Shown here one piece after another: positions 8,512 to 33,796 of a DNA stretch of 34,025 bases. Within the stretch, counting starts at the first letter, position 1. Each line of letters begins with the position of its first letter. This DNA is from an uncultured Bacilli bacterium (lineage in GTDB: Bacteria > Bacillota_I > Bacilli_A > RF39 > UBA660). A model generated the notes under the pieces. That model was not told the origin of the DNA. It searched no databases and was given only the letters and a program-made list of their open reading frames with translations. Location: the NCBI GenBank assembly GCA_944332435.1, contig CALVJW010000012.1, forward strand, positions 1 through 34,025. Reading direction: 5' to 3'. A program made the position numbers and the translations under genes.

Positions 8512-8540
8512 AAGAAGAATAGAAAGTATCTATTCTTCTT
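8512..8540 (-). terminator. terminator of the type IV secretion operon
   Basis: A 12-bp inverted repeat, AAGAAGAATAGA and TCTATTCTTCTT, with a 5-base loop overlaps the last codons of the coupling-protein gene. It is followed on the minus strand by TTTATATT. Its core resembles the hairpin at 8125-8149. Confidence 0.65.
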
Positions 8541-10833
8541 CATCACTAAAGAAATCATCAAAAAATTGGTCATCTGTAACATAGTCATCATCCTCAACGG
8601 CACCAACTGACTGTATTGGAGTAGTCGCTGTTACATGTTCTTCTTTTGGTTCAGCTTTTCTCTCCACTGTTTCAGCTTTGACAGTCTTTAAATCCGAAGC
8701 AGGAGGTGTTACTTGTGGTTTTTCTATAATTGGAGTTGCTATTTCCACAGGCTTTGATTCTATAGCTGGTTTTGCTGGAGGTGGAGTCTCTTTTTGTTTT
8801 TCTTCTTCTTCTAACTCTGCAATCTTCGAATCAATACGAGCAAGCAAACGATCAATATCAAAAGAATTATCCTTTTTTTCTTCCATTTTTTGCTCTTCTT
8901 TTTCTATTCTCTTTGTTTCTTTCTCACGGCGCTCTTCTTCCTCTAATTCTGCAATTTTTTGATCAATCTTCTTAACTAAATCATCTACATTTTGCGTTTG
9001 AGGTCTTGATGGAGATGGTCCCATCATTCCACCAAACATCGAATCACCTGGCATTGGTCTTCTTCTCGGTGGCATCATTCCACCACCCATTTCACCAAGC
9101 ATTTTTTCCCGGCGTTCTTTTACCTTTTTATCAACAAAACCTTTCAAGTCAAATATTTGAATTGGTTCTTTTTTTCTTTCAGGATAAGTAGCCTTTTCAT
9201 ATGACTTTCCCCACATATTATTTTTTACCATTTCCCAGTTTGGACAAAGTCTTGTTTTAAATGGCATTTTTCGAATACGTAAAATAACTGTTTCCCACTT
9301 TTTCATACGTTGTAAGTCACTAACTGTAACAAGAGGAGTACTAGCAGTCTTATCATCTTTCTTAGATTTTTTTTCACCACACATTTTAGAAATTTCTTCT
9401 AGTGCATTTAATTCACTACTAATTAAATAGATAATATTACCACAGTTTCCCTTAATTGTTTCACCATCATTTTTTCCATAAACTTCTGTTAATTGTGCAA
9501 AGTTTTGAATAATGAAATTAAAACGAATATTTCTAGAACGTGACGCTGTAATCATAGTCGTTACGTCTTTTAATGGTGGCATGTTCGCAAATTCGTCCAA
9601 AATAAAGTTCGTACGGAATGGTAATTTTCCACCATTTTCTTGTGCTACGTCAATTAGCGTCTCATAGCATTGTTTTAAGAAAATCGTAACGAGTGGATGA
9701 TATGTTTTCTTTTCATCTTGAATAACCAAGAATACAGCAGTTTTTTGTCTACCAATTTCTTTCATATCAAAGTCACTATAGCTTAACATTTCTGATATAT
9801 TTTCACGAGATGCGAATAATTTAATTTTTTGTTTAAATACTGATAGGATACTGCCTTTTGTATCTTGTGGTGCGATTAATGTACTAGATGCATTCGTATA
9901 AGCTGCTCCAGCTGGATCTTTATCACTAAAGTATTCTTTTACATAGGTAGAAGCTCCAATTTTTTGTTCTCCTATTGTTGTCATAATGTTAATACTATTT
10001 AAGTTAATTTCTTTTTCTTCAGCATCTTCAAATAAAGCCAATGATAACCCCGCAAAATAATCAGCAGAAGTTTTTTCCCAGAATGGGTCTTGATTTTTAG
10101 ATGAATCATCATAAAGAATGTTTAATGCTAAGTCATCTAATAGCTCAATTGCTTTATCTGAATTATGTGCTTTGTATAAAGAATACGGCAAGGTAAGTGG
10201 ATTCCAGGCATTTCCATTTTGTGGATTACGGAAATTTAACAATACAATGTTATAGCCTTTTTCTCTTAGTTCTACTGCGTTTTTTTCGTAAATTTCGCCT
10301 TTAGGGTCAGTGATAATCATTGATTCTCCGTGTTTTGCCAAAACTTTAACAAGTGGTTGTACAATCATCTCCGTTTTACCTGAACCAGTAGCTCCAATAA
10401 TTAAACTATGATACTCACTATCGTCAACCCACATTTCTTTTTTATTGTTAATAAGTGGAATACCACCAGCTGCAATTGAATCCGCTTTTGGATCTACTTT
10501 TTTTAATTCATCCTTAATTTCAGATTCTTTTGCCCATCTAGCATATCCACTTTCTTCTTTCTTTCCTTTTACAATTCCAATTCCTTTTTCACGATCAAAA
10601 AAGTATGATTTTACATTTAAAAGAATCGCTACTAAAGCTGCAATATAAAAGATAATTGCTTTACCAATCATATCTGGACTAAAAATTGGTAGTGGATTAA
10701 ATCCATGCAATGTCGATGTTTCTACAAATGAAGTAATATTTAACAATGCAATTGAAACAAGGTAAAATAACAAAATGGAAAATACAATAAAGATTTTAAT
10801 ATCCTTTGCTTCCGCTCTAAATTTTAATTTCAT
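8530..10833 (-). CDS. VirD4/TraG-family coupling ATPase
   Basis: The 767-residue protein has two N-terminal membrane helices (about 15-32, 55-72), Walker A GATGSGKT (147-154), Walker B FILDEFANMPP (about 410), and the VirD4 signature around TASRSRNIRFNFIIQNFAQL. It is the hexameric inner-membrane motor that recruits substrates to a type IV secretion channel. A tail of about 190 residues beyond the ATPase is unusual. It has a Met/Gly/Pro stretch, two copies of a DxKIAELEEEE coiled-coil unit (about 620 and 661), then a Pro/Glu-rich arm ending in an acidic DDFFSDEEE. Such C-terminal extensions often bind substrates or adaptors. It is last in the VirB6 operon. Confidence 0.92.
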   Translation of the reverse strand: MKLKFRAEAKDIKIFIVFSILLFYLVSIALLNITSFVETSTLHGFNPLPIFSPDMIGKAIIFYIAALVAILLNVKSYFFDREKGIGIVKGKKEESGYARWAKESEIKDELKKVDPKADSIAAGGIPLINNKKEMWVDDSEYHSLIIGATGSGKTEMIVQPLVKVLAKHGESMIITDPKGEIYEKNAVELREKGYNIVLLNFRNPQNGNAWNPLTLPYSLYKAHNSDKAIELLDDLALNILYDDSSKNQDPFWEKTSADYFAGLSLALFEDAEEKEINLNSINIMTTIGEQKIGASTYVKEYFSDKDPAGAAYTNASSTLIAPQDTKGSILSVFKQKIKLFASRENISEMLSYSDFDMKEIGRQKTAVFLVIQDEKKTYHPLVTIFLKQCYETLIDVAQENGGKLPFRTNFILDEFANMPPLKDVTTMITASRSRNIRFNFIIQNFAQLTEVYGKNDGETIKGNCGNIIYLISSELNALEEISKMCGEKKSKKDDKTASTPLVTVSDLQRMKKWETVILRIRKMPFKTRLCPNWEMVKNNMWGKSYEKATYPERKKEPIQIFDLKGFVDKKVKERREKMLGEMGGGMMPPRRRPMPGDSMFGGMMGPSPSRPQTQNVDDLVKKIDQKIAELEEEERREKETKRIEKEEQKMEEKKDNSFDIDRLLARIDSKIAELEEEEKQKETPPPAKPAIESKPVEIATPIIEKPQVTPPASDLKTVKAETVERKAEPKEEHVTATTPIQSVGAVEDDDYVTDDQFFDDFFSDEEE

Positions 10834-10843
10834 AAGTCACCTC

Positions 10844-11545
10844 TTATATTTTATTATTCTTTCTTATGATTATCATAATTTTTACTATACCAATTAATAG
10901 TACCAAAACAATACATGGGATATACCAAAATTTTTCCATTATATTTAACACTTGCTCTTTTTCGCTAACTCTAGTATCTAAAACAAATTCAACATTTTTA
11001 GGCTGTGTATTCTTATCAAAATTCCATGTATATACACCAGTATCAGCATTCATACTATCAGCATTACTTTGTATTACCTTAAATGGTGTCTTTAAGGTAA
11101 AAGTTACTCTTTGATAATAAGGATCTAATGGAATTACTGATTTTTCAAAAAAGTGTTCAGCATAGTCTAGTGTAGTGAATTTTAATTGATTATTTTCATG
11201 TGTCACTTGAATAGAACTAAATAAACTACCATATAAAATAGAATTATTGGCAAACGTATCTAAACTCATATCTTTTCTTATTCCCGTCACACCAGTCGTA
11301 GTTTGTGTTTTATTAATTTTATAATCAAATAAACTATATGGCTCATTGTTTTGATAAATCTTTTTTTGCATTTTTATATATTCATCTATATTTTGACCAT
11401 TAATTGTAAAATAAGAACTATCTTCATTTACTCTAATTTCCTCTGTAAAATTCAAATTTTGATCAATAGTCAATGTATAGTCAGCATTACAGCCGGTTAC
11501 TAGAAAGAGGAGTCCCATGATACAAAGTAATTTTATTTTTTTCAT
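10844..11545 (-). CDS. membrane-anchored lipoprotein of the secretion operon
   Basis: ATG 11545 (MKKIKLL) is chosen because GGGTGAG precedes it and it starts a clean lipoprotein signal: a hydrophobic core then LVTGC, with Cys as the lipidated residue. The 233-residue product has an extracytoplasmic beta-rich region (YTLTIDQNLNFTEEIRVNE onward) and then a C-terminal membrane helix (WYIPCIVLVLLIGIVKIMIII) with a basic cytoplasmic tail. Outward lipid anchor plus C-terminal TM resembles LppM-type proteins, though that is only an impression. It lies between the SpoIID-M23 hydrolase and the coupling ATPase, so it may fill the place of a VirB7/VirB8-like envelope part; no homology was shown. Confidence 0.7.
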   Translation of the reverse strand: MKKIKLLCIMGLLFLVTGCNADYTLTIDQNLNFTEEIRVNEDSSYFTINGQNIDEYIKMQKKIYQNNEPYSLFDYKINKTQTTTGVTGIRKDMSLDTFANNSILYGSLFSSIQVTHENNQLKFTTLDYAEHFFEKSVIPLDPYYQRVTFTLKTPFKVIQSNADSMNADTGVYTWNFDKNTQPKNVEFVLDTRVSEKEQVLNIMEKFWYIPCIVLVLLIGIVKIMIIIRKNNKI

Positions 11546-11550
11546 GATTC

Positions 11551-13404
11551 TCACCCTTTCGTATAATTTTGTTGACAATATTTTTGAACCTCTTTGTCCA
11601 TAATAACATCCGATCCAGATGGACTTTTTAATCCCCAGTGTAAATGCTTACCACTAGAACATCCGGTATTTCCCATTGTTCCTAAATAATCACCAGCTTT
11701 AACTTTATCTCCTACTTTAAGCTTTGGATTCAATGTATCTAAATGCCAATAAGATAATGTATAGCCATTATATTTAGATTTTGTATCTTCAATACGAATA
11801 TAATATCCTTGTCCACCCATAACGCCTCCTTGGAAGCAAGACGGATAAGTATTAGCTTTACCGGTACCAATTCCTACAATTGTACCATCTGTTGAAGATA
11901 CAATTTTTACTGGAGCAGATAGTGCTAGACGACTTCCAAATAAAGAAGTATGAGCAAAGTCTATTGATCCATGGTATACTCCACCTGGATAATATTCTCC
12001 AGCCGAATAACAATTAGCATTATAGAATTTTTCCGCAATTGGGAACTTGATTCCTGGCAATACTTCACCAGTACTAGCACAAGTAGTAGCAAGAGAAGCA
12101 GCTCCATCTTTTTTGTAATGCTCTAATAAAATTTGATCATATTTTTTTCCTAATTCTGCTTTAGCACTCCATGCATTTTGGTCATTACTAGCAAAGTTCG
12201 TATACACAACATTTCCTGATTTATCAACCACAACTTGTCCTGATACAGAATCAATCAACTGATCAAAACGCTTTTTCGCTTGTCCTGTAAACGGGGCAAT
12301 ATATCTTCCGTTTCCAGTGTTACCTTGTTTCCATATATGAACTGTTCCATAATCTAAATTATTAGTTTGTTCAATTGTACAACCCTGATCTGGATCACAA
12401 TACACCTGATCATTTTCACAACCACGCAATCGAATAACATTTCTTTCGGCATTGTAACCATAATTACAATTATCAGGGTTTCCTGGGCACATCGCATTTT
12501 GCCTTGTTAAAGCAAAACTTCTTGCTACAACTGCTTGTGCTTTAATTGCTTCATCGGGAGCTCCTCTATTTTCTGCAAAAACAACACCTTTTATATATTT
12601 TTCAAAGTCAACAGTAAATTCTACTTCTTTACCATCACAGCTTAATACTTCTACTTTTACATCTTTTACAGTCTTTCCATTTACTTGATAACTACAACTG
12701 GTTAGGCTATCGGTAGCGTTATCATCTTCACAAACCATCGCTGCGTATAAGTCACGAATTGCAAATATGTCATCTACTTTTTGCTCAATTACGGCTGACT
12801 TATTTTCTGGACTATCAGGCAAATCTTGTCCTAATTCCGTTAGTCGTTCTTCAACGTAAGTTTCTTGTAACCACTCTCTAATCTCATCTTCACTTTTATC
12901 TTTTACTCCGTTTACAATTTCTTTCGCTTCCTGATATAATTCTTTAGTATCGGGACTTGCTGTCTCTGCAGTTTCTGTACACTCTTCTTTTATTACTTCG
13001 CCAGTTTCTGGATCAACTTCTCCGACGTTGCATTTATAATCTTCGTCTACCGAAACGTTCGTTTGAAAAGTAAGAATCGCTGACACTAAATTAATATCAA
13101 CCCCAGGATTATCATCGATCATATCATTTATCTTATTATAGAAAGACGTTCCTTCTTCCTCACTGTTAAAAAATTGTACCCACTTATCTTCGATTGCTCG
13201 TTCACAACCGTTATCACCGGCATTGGCAATACCTTCCATTCCTTGTGTTTGACCTAATATCATTACTAGAATTATTAAAATGATTCCAAAAAATAGAATA
13301 ACTGGCAAGACTGGTAGTAACATAGTGAGCACAATTTGTATTTTAGCAAAAGCACCTGTTACTTGTTCAAATGCTGATTCATTATCCTTGTTACCACCAA
13401 ACAT
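11551..13404 (-). CDS. SpoIID-like plus M23 peptidase cell-wall hydrolase of the T4SS
   Basis: The 617-residue protein has one N-terminal membrane helix (about 27-50) and an extracellular part with several Cys. A SpoIID/LytB-type domain starts near 275 (DFEKYIKGVVFAE, then EAIKAQAVVARSFAL). A LytM/M23 metallopeptidase domain follows, with HGSID (about 480) and GKHLHWGL (about 587) giving the H..D..HxH zinc ligands. SpoIID proteins are lytic transglycosylases and M23 enzymes are endopeptidases, so both glycan strand and cross-link could be cut. It lies in the T4SS operon where VirB1 or CwlT-type hydrolases usually sit. The start has GGTGGTGAG. Confidence 0.88.
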   Translation of the reverse strand: MFGGNKDNESAFEQVTGAFAKIQIVLTMLLPVLPVILFFGIILIILVMILGQTQGMEGIANAGDNGCERAIEDKWVQFFNSEEEGTSFYNKINDMIDDNPGVDINLVSAILTFQTNVSVDEDYKCNVGEVDPETGEVIKEECTETAETASPDTKELYQEAKEIVNGVKDKSEDEIREWLQETYVEERLTELGQDLPDSPENKSAVIEQKVDDIFAIRDLYAAMVCEDDNATDSLTSCSYQVNGKTVKDVKVEVLSCDGKEVEFTVDFEKYIKGVVFAENRGAPDEAIKAQAVVARSFALTRQNAMCPGNPDNCNYGYNAERNVIRLRGCENDQVYCDPDQGCTIEQTNNLDYGTVHIWKQGNTGNGRYIAPFTGQAKKRFDQLIDSVSGQVVVDKSGNVVYTNFASNDQNAWSAKAELGKKYDQILLEHYKKDGAASLATTCASTGEVLPGIKFPIAEKFYNANCYSAGEYYPGGVYHGSIDFAHTSLFGSRLALSAPVKIVSSTDGTIVGIGTGKANTYPSCFQGGVMGGQGYYIRIEDTKSKYNGYTLSYWHLDTLNPKLKVGDKVKAGDYLGTMGNTGCSSGKHLHWGLKSPSGSDVIMDKEVQKYCQQNYTKG

Positions 13405-13433: not shown

Positions 13434-15218
13434 TTATAACCCGCCACCACTTCCGAAAGAATCTAATTCTTGTTCCGTTAAAATAATATTAATACGCATT
13501 CGTCTACTTCCACAAACAAACAATGCTTCTCCTTGATTATATCGCTTAATACTTTCTTTTTCACTATCATTTAAATCAATTAACTTTGCTAAATCCTCTG
13601 TTGCTTGTTTTTTCAAACCCATAACTAGATAATAAGATGCATTATCAAAAATAGCTTTTCCTTGGGTAATAACAGAAGGATCACTAAAGTCACTCGGTTG
13701 TTGGGTAATAATAATGGTACCCGTATTGTATTTTCTTGCTCGTCTTTGCACTTGTGCTAAAAAATCAGCACCTAGTGTATTATTACCAGATAGTAGCACG
13801 TGAGCTTCGTCAACAGAAAGAACCGTGTTAACACGTTTATCTAATGTCATCCCCCATGCGTATTTCAATATATTGAAAAATAATGCATTTCTAATATTCG
13901 CATCTGCATTCATTAATTCACGAATATTAAATACTATAAATTCACTCTTTGGAGAAATTGTTGTATGACCATCAAAATAATATCTTAATTCTTTTACAAT
14001 TGGGCGAATTTTTAATTCCAATCGTTCCATGATATCACGTTCGTGTGTTTTTTCAGGCATAGCAAGCAATCTACCACGAATCGTTGCATAAACGTCCTTA
14101 AATGTTGGATAATCTTTTGGCGTAAACTTTGAAAAGTCACTGTCAAAATCCATTCCAAATCGTCGATAAGTGTCTTGCACTACTTCGCTAAATAAAGTAA
14201 CAACATCTTCTGAGATACTTGGATCATAATATTTTAAAAAGGCTTTTAATGTCTGAAGTGTTCTTGTCAATACTGTATATCCAAGTCCTTGTTTAATTTC
14301 ATCCTCGTCAGCATCCATAATTACTTCTAACGGATTAATCATTCCAAATTCTCCACCTTTACCAAGGTCAATGAAATCTCCGTTGTATTGACGTGCCATT
14401 TCTTCCATTTCTCCTTCAGGATCTATCATAACTACTTGATAATTATTTCTAAAATGACTACGTAACATCAATTTAGCCGCCGTAGACTTACCACTACCAG
14501 AAGTACCTAAAATAATTAAATTAGCATTATTTCTATTATGTTCCTTTTTCGTTTGATATAAAAATTGATTGAAAAGAATTACTCCTCCTGAAAAATCTAC
14601 ACCAAGTAACGTCGATAACCCAGGATCCTTAATACTATCAAAAATAAACGGATACATAGCAGCAATTGTAGGAGAAGGAATTGGAGTTCCAATTCGATCT
14701 TCAATATCATTTTTTTTATAAATTGGTAAAATAGAACGGAACACTTTTTCTTGTTCAAATCGAAGTGGTATCGCGTTCAATTCTAATGCTTGCAAATAGT
14801 TTTTTACTTGCATTTTTTTTGTAATTAAAGCTTCTTCCGAATCTGCTGTAATCATAATGTGCATTTGAAAATCATATATTTTTGATTGACTAGATGCTAA
14901 CATAGAAATAAAAGATTCTAATGATTCATAATCTTGGCGAATTCGTTCTTGAATTGTCTTGTCATTTTCTTCTTGGTATCTTTGCTTCAAATCTGCAATT
15001 TCTTTATTTAACATTTTACTTATTACATTAAATGGCATAGGAATATGCTTAATGACTACTTTAATCCCTGACATACTAGTTAAATTAGATAAAAATCCAG
15101 GGTCAATATAACGAGGGTATGAAATAACAGTTAAAATTGTCGCATATTTATCACTAATAATAAATGAATTTGCCTTAAATTCCAACCCTTTTGGTGCTAA
15201 CTGACTTTTAATATTCAT
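13434..15218 (-). CDS. VirB4 ATPase, C-terminal part of a split VirB4
   Basis: The 594-residue protein carries Walker A GTSGSGKS (238-245), Walker B VLSVDEAHVLL (about 466) and the downstream IIITQQPSDF motif of VirB4/TraC ATPases. VirB4 powers assembly and transfer at the base of type IV secretion systems. The residues before Walker A (about 237) are fewer than the roughly 400 of usual VirB4 proteins. The missing N-terminal piece appears to be the 186-residue protein just upstream, whose end overlaps this start by 11 bases. Confidence 0.92.
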   Translation of the reverse strand: MNIKSQLAPKGLEFKANSFIISDKYATILTVISYPRYIDPGFLSNLTSMSGIKVVIKHIPMPFNVISKMLNKEIADLKQRYQEENDKTIQERIRQDYESLESFISMLASSQSKIYDFQMHIMITADSEEALITKKMQVKNYLQALELNAIPLRFEQEKVFRSILPIYKKNDIEDRIGTPIPSPTIAAMYPFIFDSIKDPGLSTLLGVDFSGGVILFNQFLYQTKKEHNRNNANLIILGTSGSGKSTAAKLMLRSHFRNNYQVVMIDPEGEMEEMARQYNGDFIDLGKGGEFGMINPLEVIMDADEDEIKQGLGYTVLTRTLQTLKAFLKYYDPSISEDVVTLFSEVVQDTYRRFGMDFDSDFSKFTPKDYPTFKDVYATIRGRLLAMPEKTHERDIMERLELKIRPIVKELRYYFDGHTTISPKSEFIVFNIRELMNADANIRNALFFNILKYAWGMTLDKRVNTVLSVDEAHVLLSGNNTLGADFLAQVQRRARKYNTGTIIITQQPSDFSDPSVITQGKAIFDNASYYLVMGLKKQATEDLAKLIDLNDSEKESIKRYNQGEALFVCGSRRMRINIILTEQELDSFGSGGGL

Positions 15219-15768
15219 ATGGTATCACCGTCCCAAAGTTAGTAGTAGTTCCTCCATTTAAGAAGTTATCTAAAATAATACGTAAATCTTCATTAGTTGT
15301 CTGATGACAATTCAGTCCAACATTCGCAAATAATGTTATTAGTGTACGAATTCTTTTTTGAATAACATCCTGATTCTTTTCTTTAAATAGTAAGTAATAT
15401 TCAGTATCAACGATATTATTATTGGTGAACATATTTCCTTTATTAATATCTTCCATAATAATTTTTCTTTTAATTGGACTTTGAGTCTCTTTAAACAGCA
15501 ATTGAAGTTGTGATAAATATACGTTAATATCAACCGGTCTGTCAGCAGCAATAATCCAAAATTCATAATCGATAGTATTGTATACATTTTTCAAATTTTC
15601 GATAGCTGCCATTTGTGCACCATAATCCATAATGAATATATTTTTTGGCATAATTTTAATACCAGTTACTTTTTCATTACTATCCAAAATAATTTCTCCA
15701 TTTGAAATATTTTTAACTGGCACAAAATTATCATCTGTATATTTACTTTTTGCTTTCATCTGACTCAT
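15208..15768 (-). CDS. N-terminal VirB4-like domain encoded as a separate gene
   Basis: The 186-residue soluble protein resembles the N-terminal region of TraC/VirB4-type ATPases: DGxx-type opening (NGEIILDSNEKVTGIKI), an AAIENLKNVYNTID helix, DINVYLSQLQLLF and a long central segment. It has no P-loop. Its stop overlaps the start of the ATPase gene by 11 bases in another frame, and its own start overlaps the PrgI-like gene by 26 bases. Length added to the next protein (186 plus 594) equals a normal VirB4. Split gene or ancestral two-subunit arrangement are both possible; both frames look intact. Confidence 0.65.
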   Translation of the reverse strand: MSQMKAKSKYTDDNFVPVKNISNGEIILDSNEKVTGIKIMPKNIFIMDYGAQMAAIENLKNVYNTIDYEFWIIAADRPVDINVYLSQLQLLFKETQSPIKRKIIMEDINKGNMFTNNNIVDTEYYLLFKEKNQDVIQKRIRTLITLFANVGLNCHQTTNEDLRIILDNFLNGGTTTNFGTVIPYEY

Positions 15769-16066
15769 TTAAGAAACACCAACCTTTCCATACATATTTT
15801 TGCCTTGATGTAAAAAACTCATATGCCGACTTTAAAATTGTAAGTACATTATGATAATTTGGGACAGGCATAACAAGGAAACCAGCAATTAATGTTGGCA
15901 TTAACGTAAGTATCGCTACTACAGTGTTATTAATTGGTAATGATACTAAGCCAAGTAATGTAAGCCCCAAACAAATAGCAAACATAATAATTTCTTCTTT
16001 TTTAAATAGCCCAAAGATTAATAGACTCTTCTTTGAATTGGCAGGTATTAAATAATTTCCATTCAT
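15743..16066 (-). CDS. PrgI-family / VirB3-like inner-membrane protein
   Basis: The 107-residue protein (ATG 16066; a GTG three codons earlier is possible) opens with LIPANSKKSLLIFGLFKKEE. It has two adjacent membrane helices (about 27-65) and ends with YVWKGWCFL. This matches the PrgI family of Gram-positive conjugation systems, regarded as the VirB3 counterpart that partners VirB4. Gene order VirB6, PrgI, VirB4 agrees with that. Confidence 0.8.
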   Translation of the reverse strand: MNGNYLIPANSKKSLLIFGLFKKEEIIMFAICLGLTLLGLVSLPINNTVVAILTLMPTLIAGFLVMPVPNYHNVLTILKSAYEFFTSRQKYVWKGWCFLNESDESKK

Positions 16067-16092
16067 CTGTATCACACTCGTTTCTTATTCTT

Positions 16093-23967: not shown

Positions 23968-23970
23968 CTT

Positions 23971-25673: not shown

Positions 25674-26843
25674 TTATCCTTCAATATTTGGAGTAACCAT
25701 TTGATTAATTCCAGGCGTTCCAACTGGAACATTATTTACCATCTGATTATTATTTTGTGCTAATTCCTGCATAACGCGTTCTTCATTCTTTTTAATCATA
25801 TCAGGCGGTAATGCCACTCCCTGTGCATCCAAATAATCGATCAAATAAGAACTTGGATTATTTGTAATTACCCTTCCACTAGTAAATTTCTTATAAAGAA
25901 TATTATGTTTAGCTTCATTATTGTTATCCACATAAAACTCAGTTACTTCTGCTATTTCACGTTTAAAGCTTTTTGTTACTTTATCTTGATATCCACGAAC
26001 ATAAATACCTAACTGCACATATCTATGAATAGATTTTAAAAATTGTTCAATATCCTGATTTGTTTCAAGTAAACTGTATAAACGGCTTGGAATTGCCTCT
26101 GCTTTATCTGCATGAATTGTAGATAAAATGTAGTGACCAGATGAAATAGAGTTACGAACTGCTAGTACAGCTTCAGCACTACGAACCTCGGATAATAAAA
26201 TCCATTTAGGGTTCTGACGCATACAAGCAACAAGAACATCTGAATAAGAAGCAATATTATTCGTCTTCATTGCAACAATATCACGCTGTGGATAAATACG
26301 ATCTAAGTGTAACTCTAAAGTATCTTCCACAGTAATTATTTTTTCGTTCTCTTTAATATGAGATGCTAAATATTTTACAAACTCCGTCTTTCCTGAACCA
26401 GTTTCTCCACAAACAATGATGTTACAATGTCCTTCTACACACTTCATTAAGAAATCGTGAATATCTCTCGTAATATACTGATCTGCTATAATTTTTTCTT
26501 TCTCTAAACGAATTTTTGCCGGTGTTTTACGAATAACACAAGCAATTCCGTTTCTTGCAATTGAATCGTGAAGAAAGTTTAAACGTAGTTCTGCACTTTC
26601 AGCGTCCAAAAACGGATGAGCCATATTAAAGGTTTTTCCCATTACGTTTGAACATTGAAAAGCTAATCGTTCCATGAATTGATCATTAATTACGTTATTT
26701 TCAACTCTAAAAATACCTTTTGATAAAGTTTTTAACCATAATTGTCCACCGTTACTATATGAAATATCGGTAATATCATCATTATCTAATAATGCTTGTA
26801 AAGGACCAAAGTCAATCTGTTCAAACATGTTATCATGATGCAT
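25674..26843 (-). CDS. TadA/CpaF-type secretion ATPase
   Basis: The 389-residue protein shows an N-terminal region (LLDNDDITDISYSNGGQLW), Walker A GETGSGKT (146-153), an Asp-box-like region with PQRDIVAMKTNN, the Walker B-like ILLSEVRSAEAV (about 215) and a His box LSTIHADKAEAIPSRL (about 238). These are the marks of GSPII_E/VirB11-type hexameric ATPases, CpaF/TadA branch. It should power assembly, and probably retraction, of the Tad pilus. It could in principle also stand in for VirB11, which the neighbouring T4SS set lacks. Confidence 0.9.
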   Translation of the reverse strand: MHHDNMFEQIDFGPLQALLDNDDITDISYSNGGQLWLKTLSKGIFRVENNVINDQFMERLAFQCSNVMGKTFNMAHPFLDAESAELRLNFLHDSIARNGIACVIRKTPAKIRLEKEKIIADQYITRDIHDFLMKCVEGHCNIIVCGETGSGKTEFVKYLASHIKENEKIITVEDTLELHLDRIYPQRDIVAMKTNNIASYSDVLVACMRQNPKWILLSEVRSAEAVLAVRNSISSGHYILSTIHADKAEAIPSRLYSLLETNQDIEQFLKSIHRYVQLGIYVRGYQDKVTKSFKREIAEVTEFYVDNNNEAKHNILYKKFTSGRVITNNPSSYLIDYLDAQGVALPPDMIKKNEERVMQELAQNNNQMVNNVPVGTPGINQMVTPNIEG

Positions 26844-26845
26844 GA

Positions 26846-27688
26846 TTAACTTTGTCCTTCATTTTTGTTATTGTTTTTATCACTATCATTTTGATTTTTT
26901 GATTGATCATTTGATTCGTCAATTACAACTGTATTTGCATTAATAAAGTCTTTCAAATATTGTGTACTAACTTGAGTTTCTCCTTCTTCTGCTGCTGTTC
27001 CACCATGTGGTACTGGGAATAATTCTACTTCTAAATCATTCATATAACTTGCTTTACGTAGTAAAATATTAATTTCTGGACTAACACCAAAAATAATTGT
27101 TGCAGGTATTCTTTCTTCTTCTGAATTTTCAAACACATGTTTTCCAGAAGCATCTTTTACTGCTAAAACTTTTACATTTTCTACTAATTTTCCTACCATG
27201 ATTTGTCCAGCATCATTCTTTGCTTTCATATAAATATCAATTTGATTCCCAGGAAAAATTGAGTTTCCATAAGTTGAATCCATATCAACTGGGAAGTTAT
27301 ATACAACTTCGCCATCTTCCACTTGTGTAAATGCTGAATCAGGTAATTCCTCTTCATTTACTAAAGTATTATTATAAAACATACTTCCCTGTGGAATTAC
27401 TGTATTATAGTTACTATATTTTCCAATTACTTGATTTGCATTACGAATTACATTTTCTGATAATACAACTGGCGCAACATCAACATAACTAATCATTTCA
27501 TTCGTAATTTTTGTTCTTGGTTGAATGGTATTTGTTGCAACTGGAATATTTTTTACTGGAGTTACAGCTTTACTAATTTGCGAGTTATATCCCCAATATA
27601 AAATTCCAATAGCTAAAACAACACCAATAATTGTTACAGTATTCTTATTCTTTAATACTCTTTGAAATTTTACAATCATTTCGTTCAT
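26846..27688 (-). CDS. CpaB/RcpC-like SAF-domain pilus assembly protein
   Basis: The 280-residue protein has one N-terminal membrane helix (TVTIIGVVLAIGILYWGY). The SAF domain follows (PVATNTIQPRTKITNEMISYVDV, then NQVIGKYSNYNTVIPQGSMF), then an RcpC-like beta domain with VVYNFPVDMDSTYGN and a C-terminal Asn/Asp/Lys-rich tail. CpaB/RcpC proteins are periplasmic or envelope parts of Tad pili; SAF domains often bind glycans. It ends three bases before the TadA gene. In a monoderm the domain would face the cell wall. Confidence 0.85.
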   Translation of the reverse strand: MNEMIVKFQRVLKNKNTVTIIGVVLAIGILYWGYNSQISKAVTPVKNIPVATNTIQPRTKITNEMISYVDVAPVVLSENVIRNANQVIGKYSNYNTVIPQGSMFYNNTLVNEEELPDSAFTQVEDGEVVYNFPVDMDSTYGNSIFPGNQIDIYMKAKNDAGQIMVGKLVENVKVLAVKDASGKHVFENSEEERIPATIIFGVSPEINILLRKASYMNDLEVELFPVPHGGTAAEEGETQVSTQYLKDFINANTVVIDESNDQSKNQNDSDKNNNKNEGQS

Positions 27689-27716: not shown

Positions 27717-28127
27717 TTAATATGGTGTTTCTAAAATCGCATCCAATTGATTTGATATTTCAAAATCAATAACCCCACCTTCGTTTCCAGTGATGCTTGC
27801 TGACTCACTAGACGAAACCTTTAAACTTACTTTTGGTGGTGTTTCGTTTACATCATATATATCAATTTGATACGTTCTAGCTAAATTCGCACTTGCGGCA
27901 AATCTTCTAAGAAAATTTTCCACAAATTTTTCTCTGTCTATTCTAATTACACCATCAGCGCGGTATGATGCAAAATCAAATGCATCATACATTGCAGCCT
28001 CTGTTGTTTCTTTTAATAAATTATAATTGTGGTCATCTGTGTTGGTTATATTTTGGAAAAAGTTAACAAATAAAATTGCAATTACCCCTACCATAATGAT
28101 AAAAATTGCCCAAAACGATTCTTTCAT
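27717..28127 (-). CDS. minor pilin-like protein of the Tad operon
   Basis: The 136-residue protein starts MKESFWAIF and runs straight into a single membrane helix (IIMVGVIAILFVNFF). The extracellular domain (TTEAAMYDAFDFASYR, REKFVENFLRRFAASAN) resembles TadE/F-type minor pilins. It lacks the Gly at position 6 seen in the other three pilin-like proteins. Its ATG overlaps the stop of the Cys-rich gene (TAATG), so translation is coupled. A pilus role is inferred from helix position and operon. Confidence 0.6.
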   Translation of the reverse strand: MKESFWAIFIIMVGVIAILFVNFFQNITNTDDHNYNLLKETTEAAMYDAFDFASYRADGVIRIDREKFVENFLRRFAASANLARTYQIDIYDVNETPPKVSLKVSSSESASITGNEGGVIDFEISNQLDAILETPY

Positions 28128-30433
28128 TATTTGTCACCATCCTTACATACTGTATTATTAGGATCTGTTGCACAATTTACACATACATATTTTTTATCCT
28201 TATTAAGTGCACATTTGATTTTATCTTGATTTGGTTTTCCAGCACATCCATAAAAATCGGTTGAATTTAAACATGTATTTGCGTTTACTTGTACACCATA
28301 ATTTTTAATATTTTTTAAAAATTTACTCTTACATTGTTTTCCATTCTTTTTACTACTACATGTTAAGTTAAAATCTGAATAGCCTTCTTTAACAGTCTTA
28401 TTATAATTTCTAATTGATTTAATCGCTTTTGCATCTAATGTAAATGAATATAATGGTGTTTTCTTATATACATTAGTTGTATCTGTTCCACGATTATTTT
28501 TTATGTATTTATTAATATCATCATTTGTCCAATTTTGACCAGATGTTCTTCCTTTTCCACTTTCACCTGGGAAAGGATTTGTTAATGATATAGATCGATA
28601 AACAACATTAATTCCCAATGGTGTTTTGTCTCCACCACCGCCAGGATTTCCACCTCCACCTGGATTTTCAGGAGACTCTGGATCTGGATCTGGACATTCT
28701 CCTTCAGGACAAGTTTTAATTCGATTGATTACTTTGTATGTACAATCATATCTTCCTATTTTATTTGGTAATTTATTAGTAAAATAACCATTTGTTCCTA
28801 AATTTTTATATGTCAAATAAATAGGATATTCTCCAGTTGCAGTTGTATAATGGACTGGATAGTTTGGATAACCAACATCAATATAACGATAATTATCTTT
28901 AATAGTTCCCGTAACTTTTGAAGAATTTGAATCAACTGATTCTCCAGTCTCCTTTAATATATACCTAAACACATTAGTTGGCATCGTATATGTGTATTGA
29001 TTTTTTACAGTTGAAGTTACCTTACTATTAAATAAGTCAGCATATTGAAATTTTGTTACAGTACAACGATCATAAATACTTTTCATATTGGCAACCTCAG
29101 AAGGTGATGATGGCAATCTACAGCTGACTGTTTTCATACTATTTGTTGAAACTGGTGCAGATTGTTTTCGCCCTGTTTTATTTTCTAAGACTTTCTTCTT
29201 ACCAGTATATCTTACTTTTCTACCCGACTTTGAAGTATAATTTCCGGTTGGATCAGTATAAGTTACTTCTACTACTGGTGTAGAAATATTATTCATGGCA
29301 CTTGTATTATTACATGCCCGTAACTTACTAATTAATTTATTCATGTTATTTTGTTGTGTCTGAGCCTGTTTTTTCCAGTGGTCAGTAGCTGCATTAAATA
29401 TAACTGTATTTTTATATTTATCTATTTGATAGTTTGTTTTTCCACCACTACCATCCCAATAAGGAGTCCCATCTACATCACAATAGTTTTTGCCCCTAGT
29501 TGTTGAGCCACCTTCCCAGTGATAAACTGTCATTTCTGTATATCTCCAACGCCCTTTTTCACCAACCTTTTTCGTTATTTTCCAGCGCCCACATCTAACA
29601 CTTCTATTTCCTTCTGAATCAGCTCCACCTGTATATGATATTCCATACCCTGGCTTACATGTTGGATAATTTAATCCTTCACTTGGTCCAGGATTAGCAG
29701 GGTCTTTGCTAGGCTTAGCAGTTCCCGCATTATATTCTTCCAAAATACATTTTTCAACATTGCCTCCTCGACATTCACTTGGTAAATCTGCTGAACCACA
29801 ATTTATACCATACGAACTATTACAATTCGGATTACTATGATAAGCTGCATTAAATTGTACATATACATTTTGTGTTGTTGTATTTTTACCCCAACAGTCT
29901 CCACCGCCTGCCTTAGTGGCTCCACTTAGGTCATTTGTCCATCTAAATTTACTATTACCATATGGCACATCCAAAGCCACTTGATGCCATTCTGCAAAAA
30001 GTCTTTCAACTGCCGTTTTATAATTTGATACAGCTTTTTCATAATTTTTTTTCCATTTTGTATAATCAATAACAGTTTCGCATTCTTTCTTTACAATAAT
30101 ACTCGCATTATCCCATTGAAAATGATTTCCACCAAGAATTGCTTGATATCTATCTACCGCCATCGGATTAATTAATTTAGGAAATTTTGTTTCTGCTTCC
30201 TCTCTACAATACTGTGTACAATATTCATTAACTTTTTTTGTAAAAGATTTGCAATTGTTCTTTTTTATAGTCGATATACTCGGATCAGTAAATTTCCCAT
30301 AGACACTTTGATCTTGTGTACAATCTGTTAACGGTTTAATAATTGTACTACATGCTCCCGCAAAAACACTAGAAACACCACAGCTAAATGTTAAAACACT
30401 TAGCATAATTAAATTGCTTGCTTTTATTTTCAT
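28127..30433 (-). CDS. large Cys-rich secreted protein, candidate pilus-tip adhesin
   Basis: ATG 30433 is preferred: GGTGGTGATAGG precedes it and it starts a clean Sec signal peptide (about residues 1-25, ending VFAGA). The 768-residue product has roughly 28 Cys in the mature chain, no membrane anchor, and a Pro/Gly linker (PDPESPENPGGGGNPGGGG) at about 605 separating a C-terminal Cys-rich region. It is coupled to the minor pilin and to the Ig-like anchored protein, first genes of the Tad operon, where large tip or adhesin proteins are often encoded. No family is recognised; disulfides are probable for an exported protein with so many Cys. Confidence 0.7.
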   Translation of the reverse strand: MKIKASNLIMLSVLTFSCGVSSVFAGACSTIIKPLTDCTQDQSVYGKFTDPSISTIKKNNCKSFTKKVNEYCTQYCREEAETKFPKLINPMAVDRYQAILGGNHFQWDNASIIVKKECETVIDYTKWKKNYEKAVSNYKTAVERLFAEWHQVALDVPYGNSKFRWTNDLSGATKAGGGDCWGKNTTTQNVYVQFNAAYHSNPNCNSSYGINCGSADLPSECRGGNVEKCILEEYNAGTAKPSKDPANPGPSEGLNYPTCKPGYGISYTGGADSEGNRSVRCGRWKITKKVGEKGRWRYTEMTVYHWEGGSTTRGKNYCDVDGTPYWDGSGGKTNYQIDKYKNTVIFNAATDHWKKQAQTQQNNMNKLISKLRACNNTSAMNNISTPVVEVTYTDPTGNYTSKSGRKVRYTGKKKVLENKTGRKQSAPVSTNSMKTVSCRLPSSPSEVANMKSIYDRCTVTKFQYADLFNSKVTSTVKNQYTYTMPTNVFRYILKETGESVDSNSSKVTGTIKDNYRYIDVGYPNYPVHYTTATGEYPIYLTYKNLGTNGYFTNKLPNKIGRYDCTYKVINRIKTCPEGECPDPDPESPENPGGGGNPGGGGDKTPLGINVVYRSISLTNPFPGESGKGRTSGQNWTNDDINKYIKNNRGTDTTNVYKKTPLYSFTLDAKAIKSIRNYNKTVKEGYSDFNLTCSSKKNGKQCKSKFLKNIKNYGVQVNANTCLNSTDFYGCAGKPNQDKIKCALNKDKKYVCVNCATDPNNTVCKDGDK

Positions 30434-30437
30434 CCTA

Positions 30438-31190
30438 TCACCACCCATTAAAACTGCTTTCTTTGTTTTTTTTATAAATCCATATACTAATGACACCAAG
30501 CAAAAGTATTGCACATATCATTAAGGCCAAATTTTGCCGAACAAAGTCAAAAATTATTTCTATTAATATCCTTTTTTCTTTTTTTTCTTTCTTTATGTCA
30601 TCATTACTTTTTTCACTTTTTAATTTCTGTATTTCTTCTTGAAAATCACTATATGACATAGTATTTTTATTCCATTTAGAACAAATATCATATTGTTCCA
30701 TACCTTTGCATAACGGATCTTTATGATACCTATTATAATATGGCAAATTTACATATTTTGTACTTATATCTATGTTCTGGCATTCTGCATGATTATCACC
30801 AGAATCATAAATAACCGTTGTATCTTTACCATCTACAATAATAGTTACTTCTTGCTTATTAGAAGAGGTCGCATTATCACTCGACTTAATTATAAATTTA
30901 TATTGTTTACCGGAAGATAAATTCCCAATTTTTACTTCTCCGTTGGCATCCCCATAATATTCTTTTTTATTAATGTCATCATAAATATATAATTTAGGAT
31001 GTACATTAGTAAATCTTACTTGAAATATGGCAGTATTATTAATCTCTGTATAGCTATAATCATAATTAATATTGGAAGCAAGCTTTTTTAGTTCGGAAAG
31101 AGAGTCATCCGGGCAAAAAGCAAAAACTTTTTTTATAGGTAATAATATAAAGATTAGAGTCACAACGATAATTAACCTTTTCTTATTCAT
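30438..31190 (-). CDS. secreted, C-terminally anchored protein with Ig-like region
   Basis: The 250-residue protein has a signal peptide (RLIIVVTLIFILLPIKKVFA, cleavage near 25), a beta-rich domain (AIFQVRFTNVHPKLYIYD through LSSGKQYKFIIKS) of Ig/fibronectin III type, a Cys-containing segment (KDPLCKGMEQYDICSKW), a charged helix, and a C-terminal membrane helix (ALMICAILLLGVISIWIY) with a short basic tail. It is the first gene of the Tad operon, with TTGTAA-N17-TATAAT and AGGAAGG upstream. I infer a surface component that works with the Cys-rich protein. Confidence 0.7.
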   Translation of the reverse strand: MNKKRLIIVVTLIFILLPIKKVFAFCPDDSLSELKKLASNINYDYSYTEINNTAIFQVRFTNVHPKLYIYDDINKKEYYGDANGEVKIGNLSSGKQYKFIIKSSDNATSSNKQEVTIIVDGKDTTVIYDSGDNHAECQNIDISTKYVNLPYYNRYHKDPLCKGMEQYDICSKWNKNTMSYSDFQEEIQKLKSEKSNDDIKKEKKEKRILIEIIFDFVRQNLALMICAILLLGVISIWIYKKNKESSFNGW

Positions 31191-31271: not shown

Positions 31272-31300
31272 AAAAAAGTGCATTCTCTTAAGATGCACTT
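31272..31300 (-). terminator. terminator of the surface-protein pair
   Basis: AAGTGCAT (31276-31283) and ATGCACTT (31293-31300) form an 8-bp stem with a 9-base loop. On the minus strand it is followed by six T. It overlaps the last codons of the DUF6273-like gene. Confidence 0.75.
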
Positions 31301-32454
31301 ACAACTCTATATGGATTAAATTCCGTACCATTTCCAACCAATTTAATGTTTCCATCTAAATAAATTGCTAACCTTACACCACTAAAGTAATATTCATGTG
31401 ATAACAGGACTGGAATCTCTTGCAAATTACCATTTTGTGTTACAATCCATACTCTTTTAAATTCATCTTTTACACTATTAATCGTCCACCAATGATACTT
31501 TTCTTTTGATAAATAATTCTCTTCCCCACAGTTATTTCGTATATCATTTTTATTAGAGCAACTAACTTTTAAATAATCTGAACTATTTAATAACCCTATT
31601 TTTAACTTACTTGTTATTTTACGCTCCTCTTTTAATACAGAAGATAAAGTAGTTGTATTTTTACTTACTTCTCCAACATACCAATCTGCATCTAAAATCA
31701 ACTCACTATTTAACTTCAATTGAAATGTTTGATTATCAATAACACCATCTTTTTGCCAATAATACATTATTTCTTGTAACGAAGATTTCTCATTCCAAGT
31801 TCCATCTTCATCTCTACGGTAATCCCATGTATATAGACCAATACTGCCTGAAATGTTAGTAGTCACTCCTTTGCAATTATTATCTCCATTTATCTCTCCT
31901 TCGTAAATTAATTTTAAACTATTATTTTTTGCGATGTTAACAATTCTCCAACATTTATTAGAAAAAACAATATAATTATTAGGATTTTTTCCGGTAAAAT
32001 AATATTTACTGGAATATTCATATGTATTATCATTATCCACAATATCTTTAATGAATTCTTCATCCATACTATTTTGCTGGATTTTTTTTAAAGCCTCTAG
32101 TGGTTTATCAATTTCTTTACATTTTTTATCACTTATTATAATTTTTGAACCAATAGCCCCCTTTTGAATGCATTTGTTTTTATACACTATATAACCATAT
32201 ACACCTTGCCCCGTGTTGACAAACTCCCCTTCTGATATATCGGTTACATCTACATTAACATTTTTGACCCCTTCTAATTTAGAATTTTTAATTATATAAT
32301 GACCAGCTGTTGCTTGAATACCATGTTCCACATTTTGATATTTTTTTAATAGTTGAAAGTTTTGATTCGTTTCTATTACTTTATAGGGAAATAAAGTAAT
32401 TGCAAAATATATAATAATAGAAACAATAATAACACCTATTTTCTTTTTTGACAT
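31288..32454 (-). CDS. membrane-anchored DUF6273-like surface protein
   Basis: ATG 32454 (MSKKKIGV) is chosen: GGGAGGATGG lies upstream and the N-terminal membrane helix starts at once, giving 388 residues. The C-terminal half has the pattern NNYIVFSNKCWRIVNI, IGLYTWDYRRDEDGTW, LKIGLLNSSDYLKVSC and YYFSGVRLAIYLDGNI, ending near FNPYRVV. This recalls DUF6273-type modules frequent in surface proteins of gut Firmicutes (W-R-I, SDY, GVRPVIYL motifs). The start is one base past the stop of the glycine-rich gene, so they are coupled. Its function is unknown; one membrane helix and an extracellular body are clear. Confidence 0.65.
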   Translation of the reverse strand: MSKKKIGVIIVSIIIYFAITLFPYKVIETNQNFQLLKKYQNVEHGIQATAGHYIIKNSKLEGVKNVNVDVTDISEGEFVNTGQGVYGYIVYKNKCIQKGAIGSKIIISDKKCKEIDKPLEALKKIQQNSMDEEFIKDIVDNDNTYEYSSKYYFTGKNPNNYIVFSNKCWRIVNIAKNNSLKLIYEGEINGDNNCKGVTTNISGSIGLYTWDYRRDEDGTWNEKSSLQEIMYYWQKDGVIDNQTFQLKLNSELILDADWYVGEVSKNTTTLSSVLKEERKITSKLKIGLLNSSDYLKVSCSNKNDIRNNCGEENYLSKEKYHWWTINSVKDEFKRVWIVTQNGNLQEIPVLLSHEYYFSGVRLAIYLDGNIKLVGNGTEFNPYRVVSAS

Positions 32455-32455
32455 A

Positions 32456-33796
32456 TTACCATCCTCCCATGTATGTAATACGCGCAAATCCATCGCCATC
32501 ATTGCCAATCATTGTCTTTTCAGTATATGGATTTGGCATTTTATCATCTCCAGATATCATTTTAATGTTAACAAAATATTTTCCTGAATAATGTTTTTCG
32601 TTTCCTGTGTGGATAATATTAGTTTCTGTCGATCTTTTTGCAATAGAGTTGCATCCTTTGCATCCCGATACATATGAAGAACCTCCTCCAGCACCATTAG
32701 AAGGTACCCAATCAAATGTGTTACAATATCCACTCCTTGAACCATAGTATCCTCCGGCTCCACCGCCTAAACCATTTATTGTACTCATGCATAATATTCC
32801 ATTCTCACCAATACCAAATTTATATCCTCCAATTTGTGTAGAACCATAGCCATAAAAGTTTTCATTTTCTAACAATGTTTTACCATTTTTTCCTTTTAAA
32901 GTGCCTCCACTTCCACTACTTCCATTTTTAAAATAATATCCTCCATTATTAAGATAAAACCTGCTCATACCACCTGCTCCTGCAGCAACCATAATTCTTG
33001 ACTTTAAAGACTCAAAGTCATTCCAAGAGCCTCCTATTAATCGCACATCTGTGGCTCCACCGCCACCTCCACCAGCCGTATTTTCTGGATCATCATATCC
33101 CGTTCCACCGCCATTGTATCCTCCTTTTCCACCAACTGACGGATACCCAAATCCAGTTAGTCGATCATCATCTTTTATTAATTTCGCATCTTCTCCTCGT
33201 CCACCGACCTGAACATAAATATTTTCTCCGGCATTTAGAAAGATGTCTCCACTAACATAAGCACCTTTTCCATAAGATTGATTTCGTAAATTTTCTATGT
33301 ATTCTTCAGTATCTTCATAAGTTGAGCTTTTTCCTCCACGTGCTCCCCATAACTCAATCCTATATTTTCCTGTTTTAGGAACAACAAAAATTTGATCAGA
33401 ATTAATATTCTTAAAAACAACCGTTTTGTCCATACAGCTACCTAAAGAATAATTAATCTTACTGCTTTTATATTCTTTTCTAGCACATATCCCATTTACG
33501 AAAATTTTGAAAGTATAATCTCCGGCATGATTAATATGTACATATCCATTACTATAACCAACGAAGGGAATTTTTTCTATTACACGATCTTTTGAGGAAG
33601 TTGAATCAATTAAAAAGCCGTTTCTAATTTTAAATAATATATAACTATTTCCAATTTCTCGCATATTTAAGGCATCATTTATTACTTTGTTTATAAAGTA
33701 ACATGATGATAAAAAAATTGATGTTAACAAAACAATTATTGCAATAATTAACATTATTACCTTTTTATTAATGACATAATGTCTATTTTTTTTCAT
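32456..33796 (-). CDS. anchored glycine-rich protein with ALK-type Gly-rich domain
   Basis: The 446-residue protein has an N-terminal membrane helix (about 13-33), a small beta domain with two Cys, and, from about 148, a glycine-rich domain: KYRIELWGARGG, then AYVSGDIFLNAGENIYVQVG, GGYNGGGTGYDD, AGGGGGGATDVRLIGG and IMVAAGAGG. This succession matches the bacterial version of the ALK/LTK glycine-rich domain (Pfam Gly_rich), in which poly-Gly helices form a compact receptor-like fold. It is the first gene of the pair at the start of the pilus region and is likely exposed on the cell surface for binding. Confidence 0.8.
   Translation of the reverse strand: MKKNRHYVINKKVIMLIIAIIVLLTSIFLSSCYFINKVINDALNMREIGNSYILFKIRNGFLIDSTSSKDRVIEKIPFVGYSNGYVHINHAGDYTFKIFVNGICARKEYKSSKINYSLGSCMDKTVVFKNINSDQIFVVPKTGKYRIELWGARGGKSSTYEDTEEYIENLRNQSYGKGAYVSGDIFLNAGENIYVQVGGRGEDAKLIKDDDRLTGFGYPSVGGKGGYNGGGTGYDDPENTAGGGGGGATDVRLIGGSWNDFESLKSRIMVAAGAGGMSRFYLNNGGYYFKNGSSGSGGTLKGKNGKTLLENENFYGYGSTQIGGYKFGIGENGILCMSTINGLGGGAGGYYGSRSGYCNTFDWVPSNGAGGGSSYVSGCKGCNSIAKRSTETNIIHTGNEKHYSGKYFVNIKMISGDDKMPNPYTEKTMIGNDGDGFARITYMGGW

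Follow-up and report, generated by a model that had tools for sequence, protein, structure and literature searches.

A Tad pilus locus adjoining a relaxase-free type IV secretion system in a family of uncultured Bacilli

We analyzed a 34,025-nucleotide stretch of DNA (the window) that makes up a whole contig, CALVJW010000012.1, of the 943-kb, 66% complete assembly GCA_944332435.1 from an uncultured Bacilli bacterium (GTDB lineage Bacillota_I, Bacilli_A, RF39, UBA660). Its minus strand carries a run of co-oriented open reading frames (ORFs) that extends about 25 kb from position 33796 to 8530, in which Tad-type pilus genes are followed by the genes of a monoderm type IV secretion system (T4SS). 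The largest intergenic gap in the run, between a pilin gene and the VirB6 gene, is 231 bp, and every other gap is shorter than 100 bp. An original prediction, made from the letters alone, had described one locus joining a Tad pilus machine to a T4SS; content, order and strand are as it claimed and the order is kept across the family, but its twenty co-oriented genes, correctly oriented, number 23. Profile-family scans of 34 of the window's 51 ORFs found neither a relaxase nor an integrase or transposase. The joined Tad and T4SS genes are equipment of the family, not a quirk of this contig. In what follows, G, g, f and L numbers denote genomes, genera, families and named loci, and the window is contig C12 of genome G000.

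The genes of the run are listed in Table 1. Among the labels given by the original prediction, those of TadA, CpaB, VirB4 (here split in two), the hydrolase and VirD4 stand, while TadB/TadC, TadE, TadZ, VirB2, PrgI and VirB6 are assigned from weak matches, fold or position.

Table 1. Genes of the minus-strand run, in order of transcription, with the basis of each assignment
Feature	Position	Strand	Basis and remarks
Glycine-rich ALK/LTK-GRD protein, first in run	32456..33796	-	PF12810 E 5.7e-44; machine membership uncertain
Protein without a family over cut-off	31288..32508	-	G001 homologue; machine membership uncertain
Variable protein, hydrophobic N- and C-terminal segments, probably exported	30438..31190	-	Recurs beside Tad genes
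Large variable protein, probably exported; candidate adhesin or pilus-tip protein	28127..30514	-	Position
DUF5411 small membrane protein, head of Tad genes	27717..28127	-	PF17424 E 4.5e-53
CpaB/RcpC	26846..27688	-	PF16976 31.9 bits (cut-off 28.8)
TadA/CpaF-type ATPase, Tad motor	25674..26843	-	T2SSE PF00437 E 3.4e-28
TadB-like membrane platform	24759..25661	-	Position; weak T2SSF
TadC-like membrane platform	23971..24759	-	Position; weak T2SSF in homologue
YfhO-family membrane protein, between TadC and Flp	21464..24037	-	PF09586 E 4.1e-140; outside conserved machine
Flp-like pilin, short leader	21203..21391	-	G6-E7 invariant in 14 rows; leader 14/14
TadE-like minor pilin 1	20750..21175	-	Position and leader pattern, 10/11 members
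TadE-like minor pilin 2	20286..20726	-	Position and leader pattern, 12/13 members
TadZ/CpaE-like, degenerate P-loop	19248..20264	-	AlphaFold model fold match
VirB2-like T4SS pilin	18830..19168	-	PF18895 17.6 bits, under cut-off 26.6
VirB2-like T4SS pilin	18343..18741	-	PF18895 22.8 bits, under cut-off 26.6; NF045849 weak, E 0.018
VirB6-like polytopic protein	16093..18111	-	Position; no Pfam match
PrgI/TcpE, VirB3-like	15743..16075	-	Family members: 5/17 match PrgI, 9/17 TcpE
VirB4 N-terminal domain, separate protein	15208..15768	-	NF045975 E 4.3e-16, positions 97-276
VirB4 ATPase	13434..15218	-	NF045975 E 8.6e-105, below cut-off, positions 294-891; PDB 4ag5 E 1.4e-62
Cell-wall hydrolase SpoIID + M23, VirB1-like role	11551..13404	-	PF01551 and PF08486 over cut-off
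Putative lipoprotein	10844..11578	-	No family match
VirD4 coupling ATPase, C-terminal DDxFFDDFF tail	8530..10833	-	NF045973 (CD1115 conjugation family) 298.9 bits (cut-off 250)

In the Tad half, TadA matches FlaI, CpaF and VirB11 in the PDB, carries a GETGSGKT motif that is invariant in 14 rows, and clusters in a tree with the TadA rows, separate from the PilB-type rows of the family that served as outgroup; Walker A motifs are kept in TadA, VirB4 and VirD4. The TadB- and TadC-like products are two helical proteins in the expected place. T2SSF is touched by one of 28 members (E 0.09), and homologues elsewhere come nearer to it: a TadB homologue on a Priestia plasmid (profile E 4e-14) at E 3.4e-05, just under cut-off, and a TadC homologue in genome G494 of family f19 (profile E 3e-19) at E 0.0033, also under cut-off. 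A TadB/TadC model from an alignment that mixed both proteins (predicted local distance difference test score, pLDDT, 73; predicted template-modeling score, pTM, 0.53) gave no Foldseek row at E 0.001 and no T2SSF, and VIA-align returned other helical proteins only, at Z under 6. No relevant Pfam family was found for the two TadE-like proteins in 18 members or for TadZ in 14, and TadZ and CpaB have no PDB match by sequence. A TadZ AlphaFold model (pLDDT 77, pTM 0.53) matches ParA-, MinD- and related P-loop folds, including the ParA structure 3ea0 at E 2.6e-5, with the mutase-fused GTPase 4xc7 as its top row. Flp has a short conserved leader with G6-E7, but no E at +5 as in the prepilin-site definition; a loose leader pattern of our own fits 14/14 Flp, 22/24 TadE-like and 8/14 DUF5411 proteins, and none of seven other protein sets. 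A prepilin peptidase (PF01478) is encoded in 36 of 40 family genomes, always as one copy outside the locus (near a PilB-type gene in G001 and G003); it was not found in the 66% complete G000. This single enzyme of the relatives could process the Flp, TadE-like and DUF5411 leaders. Many family genomes also encode a second, distant TadA-like ATPase in another locus, such as L183 (G008:C1) or L184 (G016:C11), which with the PilB-type ATPase makes up to three motors of the type IV filament class in genomes of about 1 Mb.

In the T4SS half, one to six VirB2-like pilin ORFs were counted in each of 52 named loci, and the VirB6 profile matches a TrbL-annotated protein of an Exiguobacterium plasmid at E 3e-6. 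The VirB4 ATPase is 69-99% identical to those of 15 relatives (median 78%), compared with a median of 74% for the flanking RmuC in nine. The proteins at the head of the run diverge far more: median identity is 31% for the shorter variable protein in the nine relatives where it was detected, and 29% for the large one in the eight recognized by its profile. An ORF of 703-1385 amino acids lies directly upstream of DUF5411 in all 13 mapped relatives that reach that far, and several plasmids have an adhesin-type gene at roughly the same place. Of 392 genomes of the phylum, 20 encode a DUF5411 protein above cut-off, and 19 of those 20 belong to the family; DUF5411 is also annotated on a Priestia plasmid. 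Judged by these sequences, the combination of a highly conserved VirB4 with variable pilins and surface proteins would fit a constant engine with changing contact surfaces.

The same locus recurs across the family. A VirD4 with identity above 50% is present in 33 of 37 family genomes, and in a sample of 193 (limits, E up to 1e-60 for TadA and 1e-90 for VirB4) TadA is found in 162 and VirB4 in 166, or 164 once two proteins of 785-786 amino acids, of the type found in integrative and conjugative elements (ICEs), are removed from G117 and G106 and these genomes are reassigned to those with TadA only. After this correction, 151 genomes have both TadA and the orthologous VirB4, 13 VirB4 only, 11 TadA only and 18 neither (Fisher p 3e-10 with kinship ignored; 5e-11 before reassignment). 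Positions were given for 149 of the 162 TadA and 150 of the 166 VirB4 genomes, yielding 134 pairs, of which 58 lie on different contigs and say little about linkage. Among the 76 same-contig pairs, 69 are within 15 kb (median 10.2 kb) and colinear, with TadA upstream on the same strand, which bears out the linkage expected by the original prediction. A GTDB 220 scan with a VirB4 alignment found at least 574 relatives, 80 loci of which were kept, all from metagenome-assembled genomes, mostly labeled Bacilli, Tenericutes, Bacillales, Mollicutes or Erysipelotrichaceae, with one Candidatus Coprosoma. Among these 80, VirD4 follows in all 61 with enough downstream sequence; in the 53 whose sequence extends 9 kb or more upstream of VirB4, TadA, TadB or TadC appears in 35 and some Tad gene in 50 (the exceptions are L064, L104 and L123). 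Because the same order recurs across the family, it goes beyond chance. The view of the locus as fixed chromosomal equipment is borne out as well, by this order, by a rhodanese-RmuC flank that recurs in many relatives, and by contigs of 298, 297 and 402 kb around the locus in G014, G031 and G093.

Several observations weigh against the two gene sets acting together. Two things inflate the co-occurrence count: loss of a single contig takes away both neighbors, and the genomes share ancestry. Assembly accounts for part of the absences: G012, G033 and G036, scored as TadA only, and G015, scored as neither, still have the locus VirD4, and several of the 13 genomes with VirB4 only are broken assemblies. 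G024 and G030 lack both genes, and the same-genus G185 and G188 have both. Each half is also found without the other, the T4SS without TadA for example in both genomes of genus g59, and Tad without an orthologous VirB4 in G117 (three contigs, 91% complete). The identification of the VirB2-like pilins, TadB/TadC, TadE and VirB6 is weak. Finally, seven of the 76 same-contig pairs are 18.8-58.9 kb apart. The original prediction had named distance between the sets in close relatives as evidence against itself, and this is found in part: six relatives have them 33-59 kb apart and a seventh about 19 kb, and in some others TadA and VirB4 lie on different contigs with long flanks. The breaks recur at two points. 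One is the TadC-Flp junction, where G170, G130 and G198 are split and Flp, TadE and TadZ remain with the T4SS; the other, in G008, G021, G023, G146, G183, G193 and G202, separates TadZ, alone or together with a pilin, from VirB6. In G016 VirD4 stays beside the Tad genes with VirB4 elsewhere. With the sets 19-59 kb apart or on separate contigs in some relatives, linkage is usual but not obligatory, and the modules are partners at most, not one indivisible device, nor can the T4SS depend on TadA as an obligatory motor.

These exceptions give some weight to the idea that two independent machines share an operon, the Tad pilus serving adhesion to a host or substrate and the T4SS a task of its own. 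Each half occurring alone, the six relatives with separations of 33-59 kb, the same Tad type without an adjoining T4SS in family f19, and a VirD4 tail, described below, that stays in genomes without TadA all point this way. We nonetheless consider independence a distinctly less probable account, given the colinear linkage in 69 of 76 same-contig genomes, the breaks in G130, G170 and G198 that leave Flp, TadE and TadZ with the T4SS, and the repetition of the union on plasmids.

A closer coupling, proposed by the original prediction, has TadA serving both the filament and the T4SS as a substitute VirB11. The best model score of TadA is indeed to VirB11, at 117.8 bits, below the cut-off of 250, and virB11 is named, with virD4 and a putative adhesin gene, among the T4SS genes of pLS20 (PMC11730352). 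That same coupling is hard to reconcile with the 13 of 193 genomes, including both of g59, that have VirB4 without TadA, or with a 2025 review stating that Gram-positive T4SSs universally lack VirB11 (PMC12857230), from which it follows that nothing is missing in the T4SS of this locus. TadA moreover has its own TadB/TadC-like partners and pilins. Since the halves are separable, a substitute VirB11 is not supported, and we think such a role unlikely.

The lack of a relaxase extends beyond the window. PF03432 matches occur in 13 of the 40 surveyed family genomes, over cut-off in seven, and MobP3 matches in seven (all four added control genomes were detected); one or the other is present in 15 genomes and neither in 25, of which 22 have the T4SS, in a search that did not cover MOBV, MOBQ and MOBT. 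Within that scope the claim of a T4SS without a relaxase stands: no PF03432 or MobP3 match lies within 65 kb of the locus in any of the 40 genomes, none was found in the 66% complete G000, and the relatives show no relaxase just outside the equivalent of the window. A mobile element just beyond the contig was considered and is disfavored by the family-wide order and flanks, in a window genome that is 66% complete. The locus might still work as a conjugation machine, a chromosomal helper for relaxases supplied in trans by plasmids or ICEs, as the matches in 15 of 40 genomes and the membership of its VirD4 in the CD1115 conjugation family would allow. We find this improbable in view of the 25 genomes without a match, 22 of them with the T4SS. 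The matches that do occur are at least 65 kb away or not on the same contig, and several have next to them a second VirD4 or VirB4, of ICE type and their own; the tail of the locus VirD4 is not on the mobile VirD4s compared.

That tail, a C-terminal DDxFFDDFF or near variant, is present in 18 of 18 locus VirD4s compared and in 68 of 69 uncut VirD4 ORFs of named loci (the exception is L107), and it is also kept in G062, G195, G090, G115, G128 and G167, where no TadA was found. It was not seen in the ICE-type VirD4s of G000, G004, G009, G037, G048, G117 and G183, in five VirD4s from families f13 and f19 (one cut by the end of the stretch), or in the plasmid VirD4s compared. Coupling proteins select substrates, and a conserved, family-specific tail thus fits, and suggests, a new substrate or partner. 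Since the tail persists without TadA, that partner is probably not the pilus. The genome of the window also has a second VirD4-like gene, of 451 amino acids, at L058 (G000:C15:10001-30000) on a likely mobile element.

The premise that Tad and T4SS machines are normally separate turned out to be partly wrong, as several plasmids carry both. Among the 341 genomes outside the family in our class sample of 395, the VirB4 type occurs at our limits in 9 and the TadA type in 23, and both occur only in G041. By our reading of its sequences, the G041 cluster has TadA, two TadB/C-size genes, VirB6, PrgI and a split VirB4 among ArdC-like, ParA-like and restriction-type genes, and is therefore probably mobile. 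A second joined case, G574, falls below the TadA limit and agrees in gene positions with a 97.9-kb Mycoplasmatota plasmid on which VirB4 and a CpaF-Tad set are about 5 kb apart. In six of ten plasmid regions opened from the best matches, TadA and VirB4 lie within about 16 kb (pHTbeta, zrk4, Exiguobacterium, Oscillospiraceae, pBamB1895 and Virgibacillus), and all but zrk4 have an annotated or PLSDB-typed relaxase; the Lysinibacillus plasmid has VirB4 without TadA, and no VirB4 accompanies TadA in the stretch taken from the B. velezensis, Priestia and Peribacillus plasmids. Such repeated union on plasmids of other clades argues for joint use.

Phylogenies give the two halves different neighbors. 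The family's VirB4s form one clade that groups with elements of f13 and f19 at 100/100, in a midpoint-rooted tree without Patescibacteria sequences; of these five f13/f19 VirB4 rows, all four tested carry a MobP3-like relaxase, below the model cut-off, and the TadA type is absent from all five genomes. The family's TadAs group with Tads of f19 and f13 at 99/98, beside which no T4SS genes were found in the stretches taken, one of them on a 1.7-Mb contig. Both trees hold flagged long branches. A single origin of all Tad-T4SS unions is disfavored: an approximately unbiased (AU) test rejects one clade for VirB4 (p 3.8e-7) and TadA (p 6.6e-9), with groups that were defined by gene content and tested after the trees had been seen, the "plasmid" TadA group including B. 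velezensis CP019039, Priestia and Peribacillus, which have no VirB4 in the opened region. For one clade of family TadAs and pLS20-like rows, a group chosen after the tree was seen, p is 0.0012. With its VirB4 near relaxase-bearing elements without Tad and its TadA near Tads without a T4SS, the family's union probably arose separately. By sequence relationships, there were probably several unions, and the family would have taken its T4SS from an element that bore a relaxase and its Tad from a type spread across the class; it is also possible that the two were joined long ago and that the sister families f13 and f19 later lost this state.

From gene content, order and conservation, a locus without a relaxase, its relatives and the VirD4 tail, all of which are seen directly, we infer pilus assembly, joint action, direction and substrate as follows. 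On balance we lean toward a T4SS of conjugation type that, having lost its relaxase and become fixed, joined forces with a Tad pilus for contact-dependent delivery. The two co-inherited machines would most likely act in sequence. The Tad pilus, with its TadA motor, TadB/TadC-like platform, CpaB, TadZ and Flp- and TadE-like pilins, would extend and pull, contacting another cell; the large variable proteins from the head of the run would serve as adhesins, and the single peptidase encoded elsewhere in the relatives' genomes would process the prepilins. The monoderm T4SS, comprising the VirB2-like pilins, VirB6, PrgI, split VirB4, M23/SpoIID hydrolase and VirD4, would then deliver a substrate chosen by VirD4. 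If this T4SS came from relaxase-bearing conjugative elements, and relaxase loss and fixation took place early in the family's history, the element itself is probably no longer what it usually transports; the substrate may be protein, or DNA without a relaxase.

The direction of transport could also be inward, with the locus importing DNA or exchanging chromosomal DNA in the manner of H. pylori ComB or the archaeal Ups and Ced systems. A pilus with a VirB4/VirB6-type channel is the Ups/Ced plan (PMC11868833), and Flp pilus biogenesis has been tied to natural transformation (PMC4322843). However, ComEC is present in 36 of 40 genomes, including G060 and G105, which have no TadA or VirB4 match, and a distant ATPase that we label PilB-type by inference is present in 26 of 37 family genomes; since these genes occur separately, DNA uptake has another candidate. 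ComB, according to PMC12857230, has no VirD4, while the locus keeps one. Import therefore seems to us a poor prospect. As an archaeal parallel, Ups and Ced likewise provide a type IV pilus for contact and a DNA-exchange channel, but are described as two systems working in the import direction (PMC11868833).

Around this machinery, the ALK/LTK-GRD gene, whose domain name comes from animal receptor kinases, and the gene after it have homologues in the same-genus G001 and not in other mapped relatives. The YfhO family acts in cell-surface glycosylation; its gene has the same place in G001 and G193 and lies upstream of Flp in the mapped loci L063, L079, L083 and L099. Its insertion point, the TadC-Flp boundary, is the same boundary at which other genomes split the locus. 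The lipoprotein slot holds a homologue or an ORF of similar size in most mapped relatives. Flanking the run are rhodanese, DUF2238, RmuC and UvrD-type genes and one gene without a family label. At 33845-33928, near the contig end, lies a group II intron domain (RF00029, 41.6 bits, cut-off 40), which is possibly why the contig stops there. In the 98% complete G060, which has no TadA or VirB4 match at our limits, L182 (G060:C6) combines DUF5411 and the two variable proteins with a 5026-amino-acid ORF, possibly a remnant or re-use of the locus.

By analogy, the closest case of how such a system might work is the relaxase-poor T4SS and pili of Saccharibacteria, which are presented as essential for epibiotic growth in a review that describes nearly all Gram-positive T4SSs as serving one-way DNA transfer (PMC12857230). 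Patescibacteria, including Saccharibacteria, share with the locus a monoderm chromosomal T4SS with tandem PF18895-type, VirB2-like pilins and mostly no relaxase (PMC12102498, PMC12857230), as well as small genomes with pilus machinery in the same genome. They belong to another phylum, and in the parts of these sources covered no shared operon of their pili and T4SS is described, whereas the predicted pilus of the Bacilli locus is of Tad type and adjoins the T4SS.

Plasmids offer the closest gene-by-gene likeness. The pLS20-like plasmids pBamB1895, pHTbeta and the Virgibacillus plasmid share an adhesin-type gene, TadA, two TadB/C-size genes, small pilin-size genes, VirD4 (CD1115), a pLS20_p028-type membrane protein, an approximately 200-amino-acid protein and VirB4, all in one direction, with VirB2 annotated in two of the three; they differ in being plasmid-borne, in their annotated or PLSDB-typed relaxase, in having VirD4 before the membrane protein, and in TadA and VirB4 of other clades. 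Exiguobacterium pEYLC1.2 shares DUF5411, CpaB, a TadZ-like AAA protein, TadA, TadC, VirD4, VirB6, PrgI and a split VirB4, but has a MobP3 relaxase, T4SS genes that precede the Tad genes, and no DDxFFDDFF tail. Plasmids with a tad locus and conjugation genes have been described in Cutibacterium acnes (PMC5696575): these linear, actinobacterial plasmids have the Tad locus near a VirB4-type conjugation gene, with appendages seen by electron microscopy, but are described with an FtsK-type translocase, and VirD4 is not mentioned in the part of that paper covered. In Bacillus subtilis an adhesin is reported to be required for efficient conjugation (PMC8092201, with no mention of VirB11 or Tad in the part covered). 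Among the matches listed in the open-licence literature, we found no description of a Tad-T4SS locus in this Bacilli family. Neither half is new; their fixed, relaxase-free union across a family is.

A family of uncultured bacteria with small genomes, many of them from animal guts, usually keeps a pilus and a relaxase-free transfer channel at one site. An orthologous relaxase-free T4SS in about 85% of sampled family genomes (164/193), in most cases linked to a pilus, would provide many new candidates for other functions. How Gram-positive donors hold a partner cell is called poorly understood in the parts of the pLS20 literature covered, and on this point the recurrent union of Tad with T4SS offers a claim that can be tested. 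More speculatively, and with considerable doubt, we suggest that a second phylum may have independently evolved a fixed relaxase-free channel that works with a type IV-class pilus to exploit neighboring microbes, or exchange with them, on contact, that the family may be partly epibiont, and that the VirD4 tail may dock a non-plasmid substrate. A pilus beside a relaxase-free channel suggests that these bacteria are equipped for touching and acting on neighboring cells.

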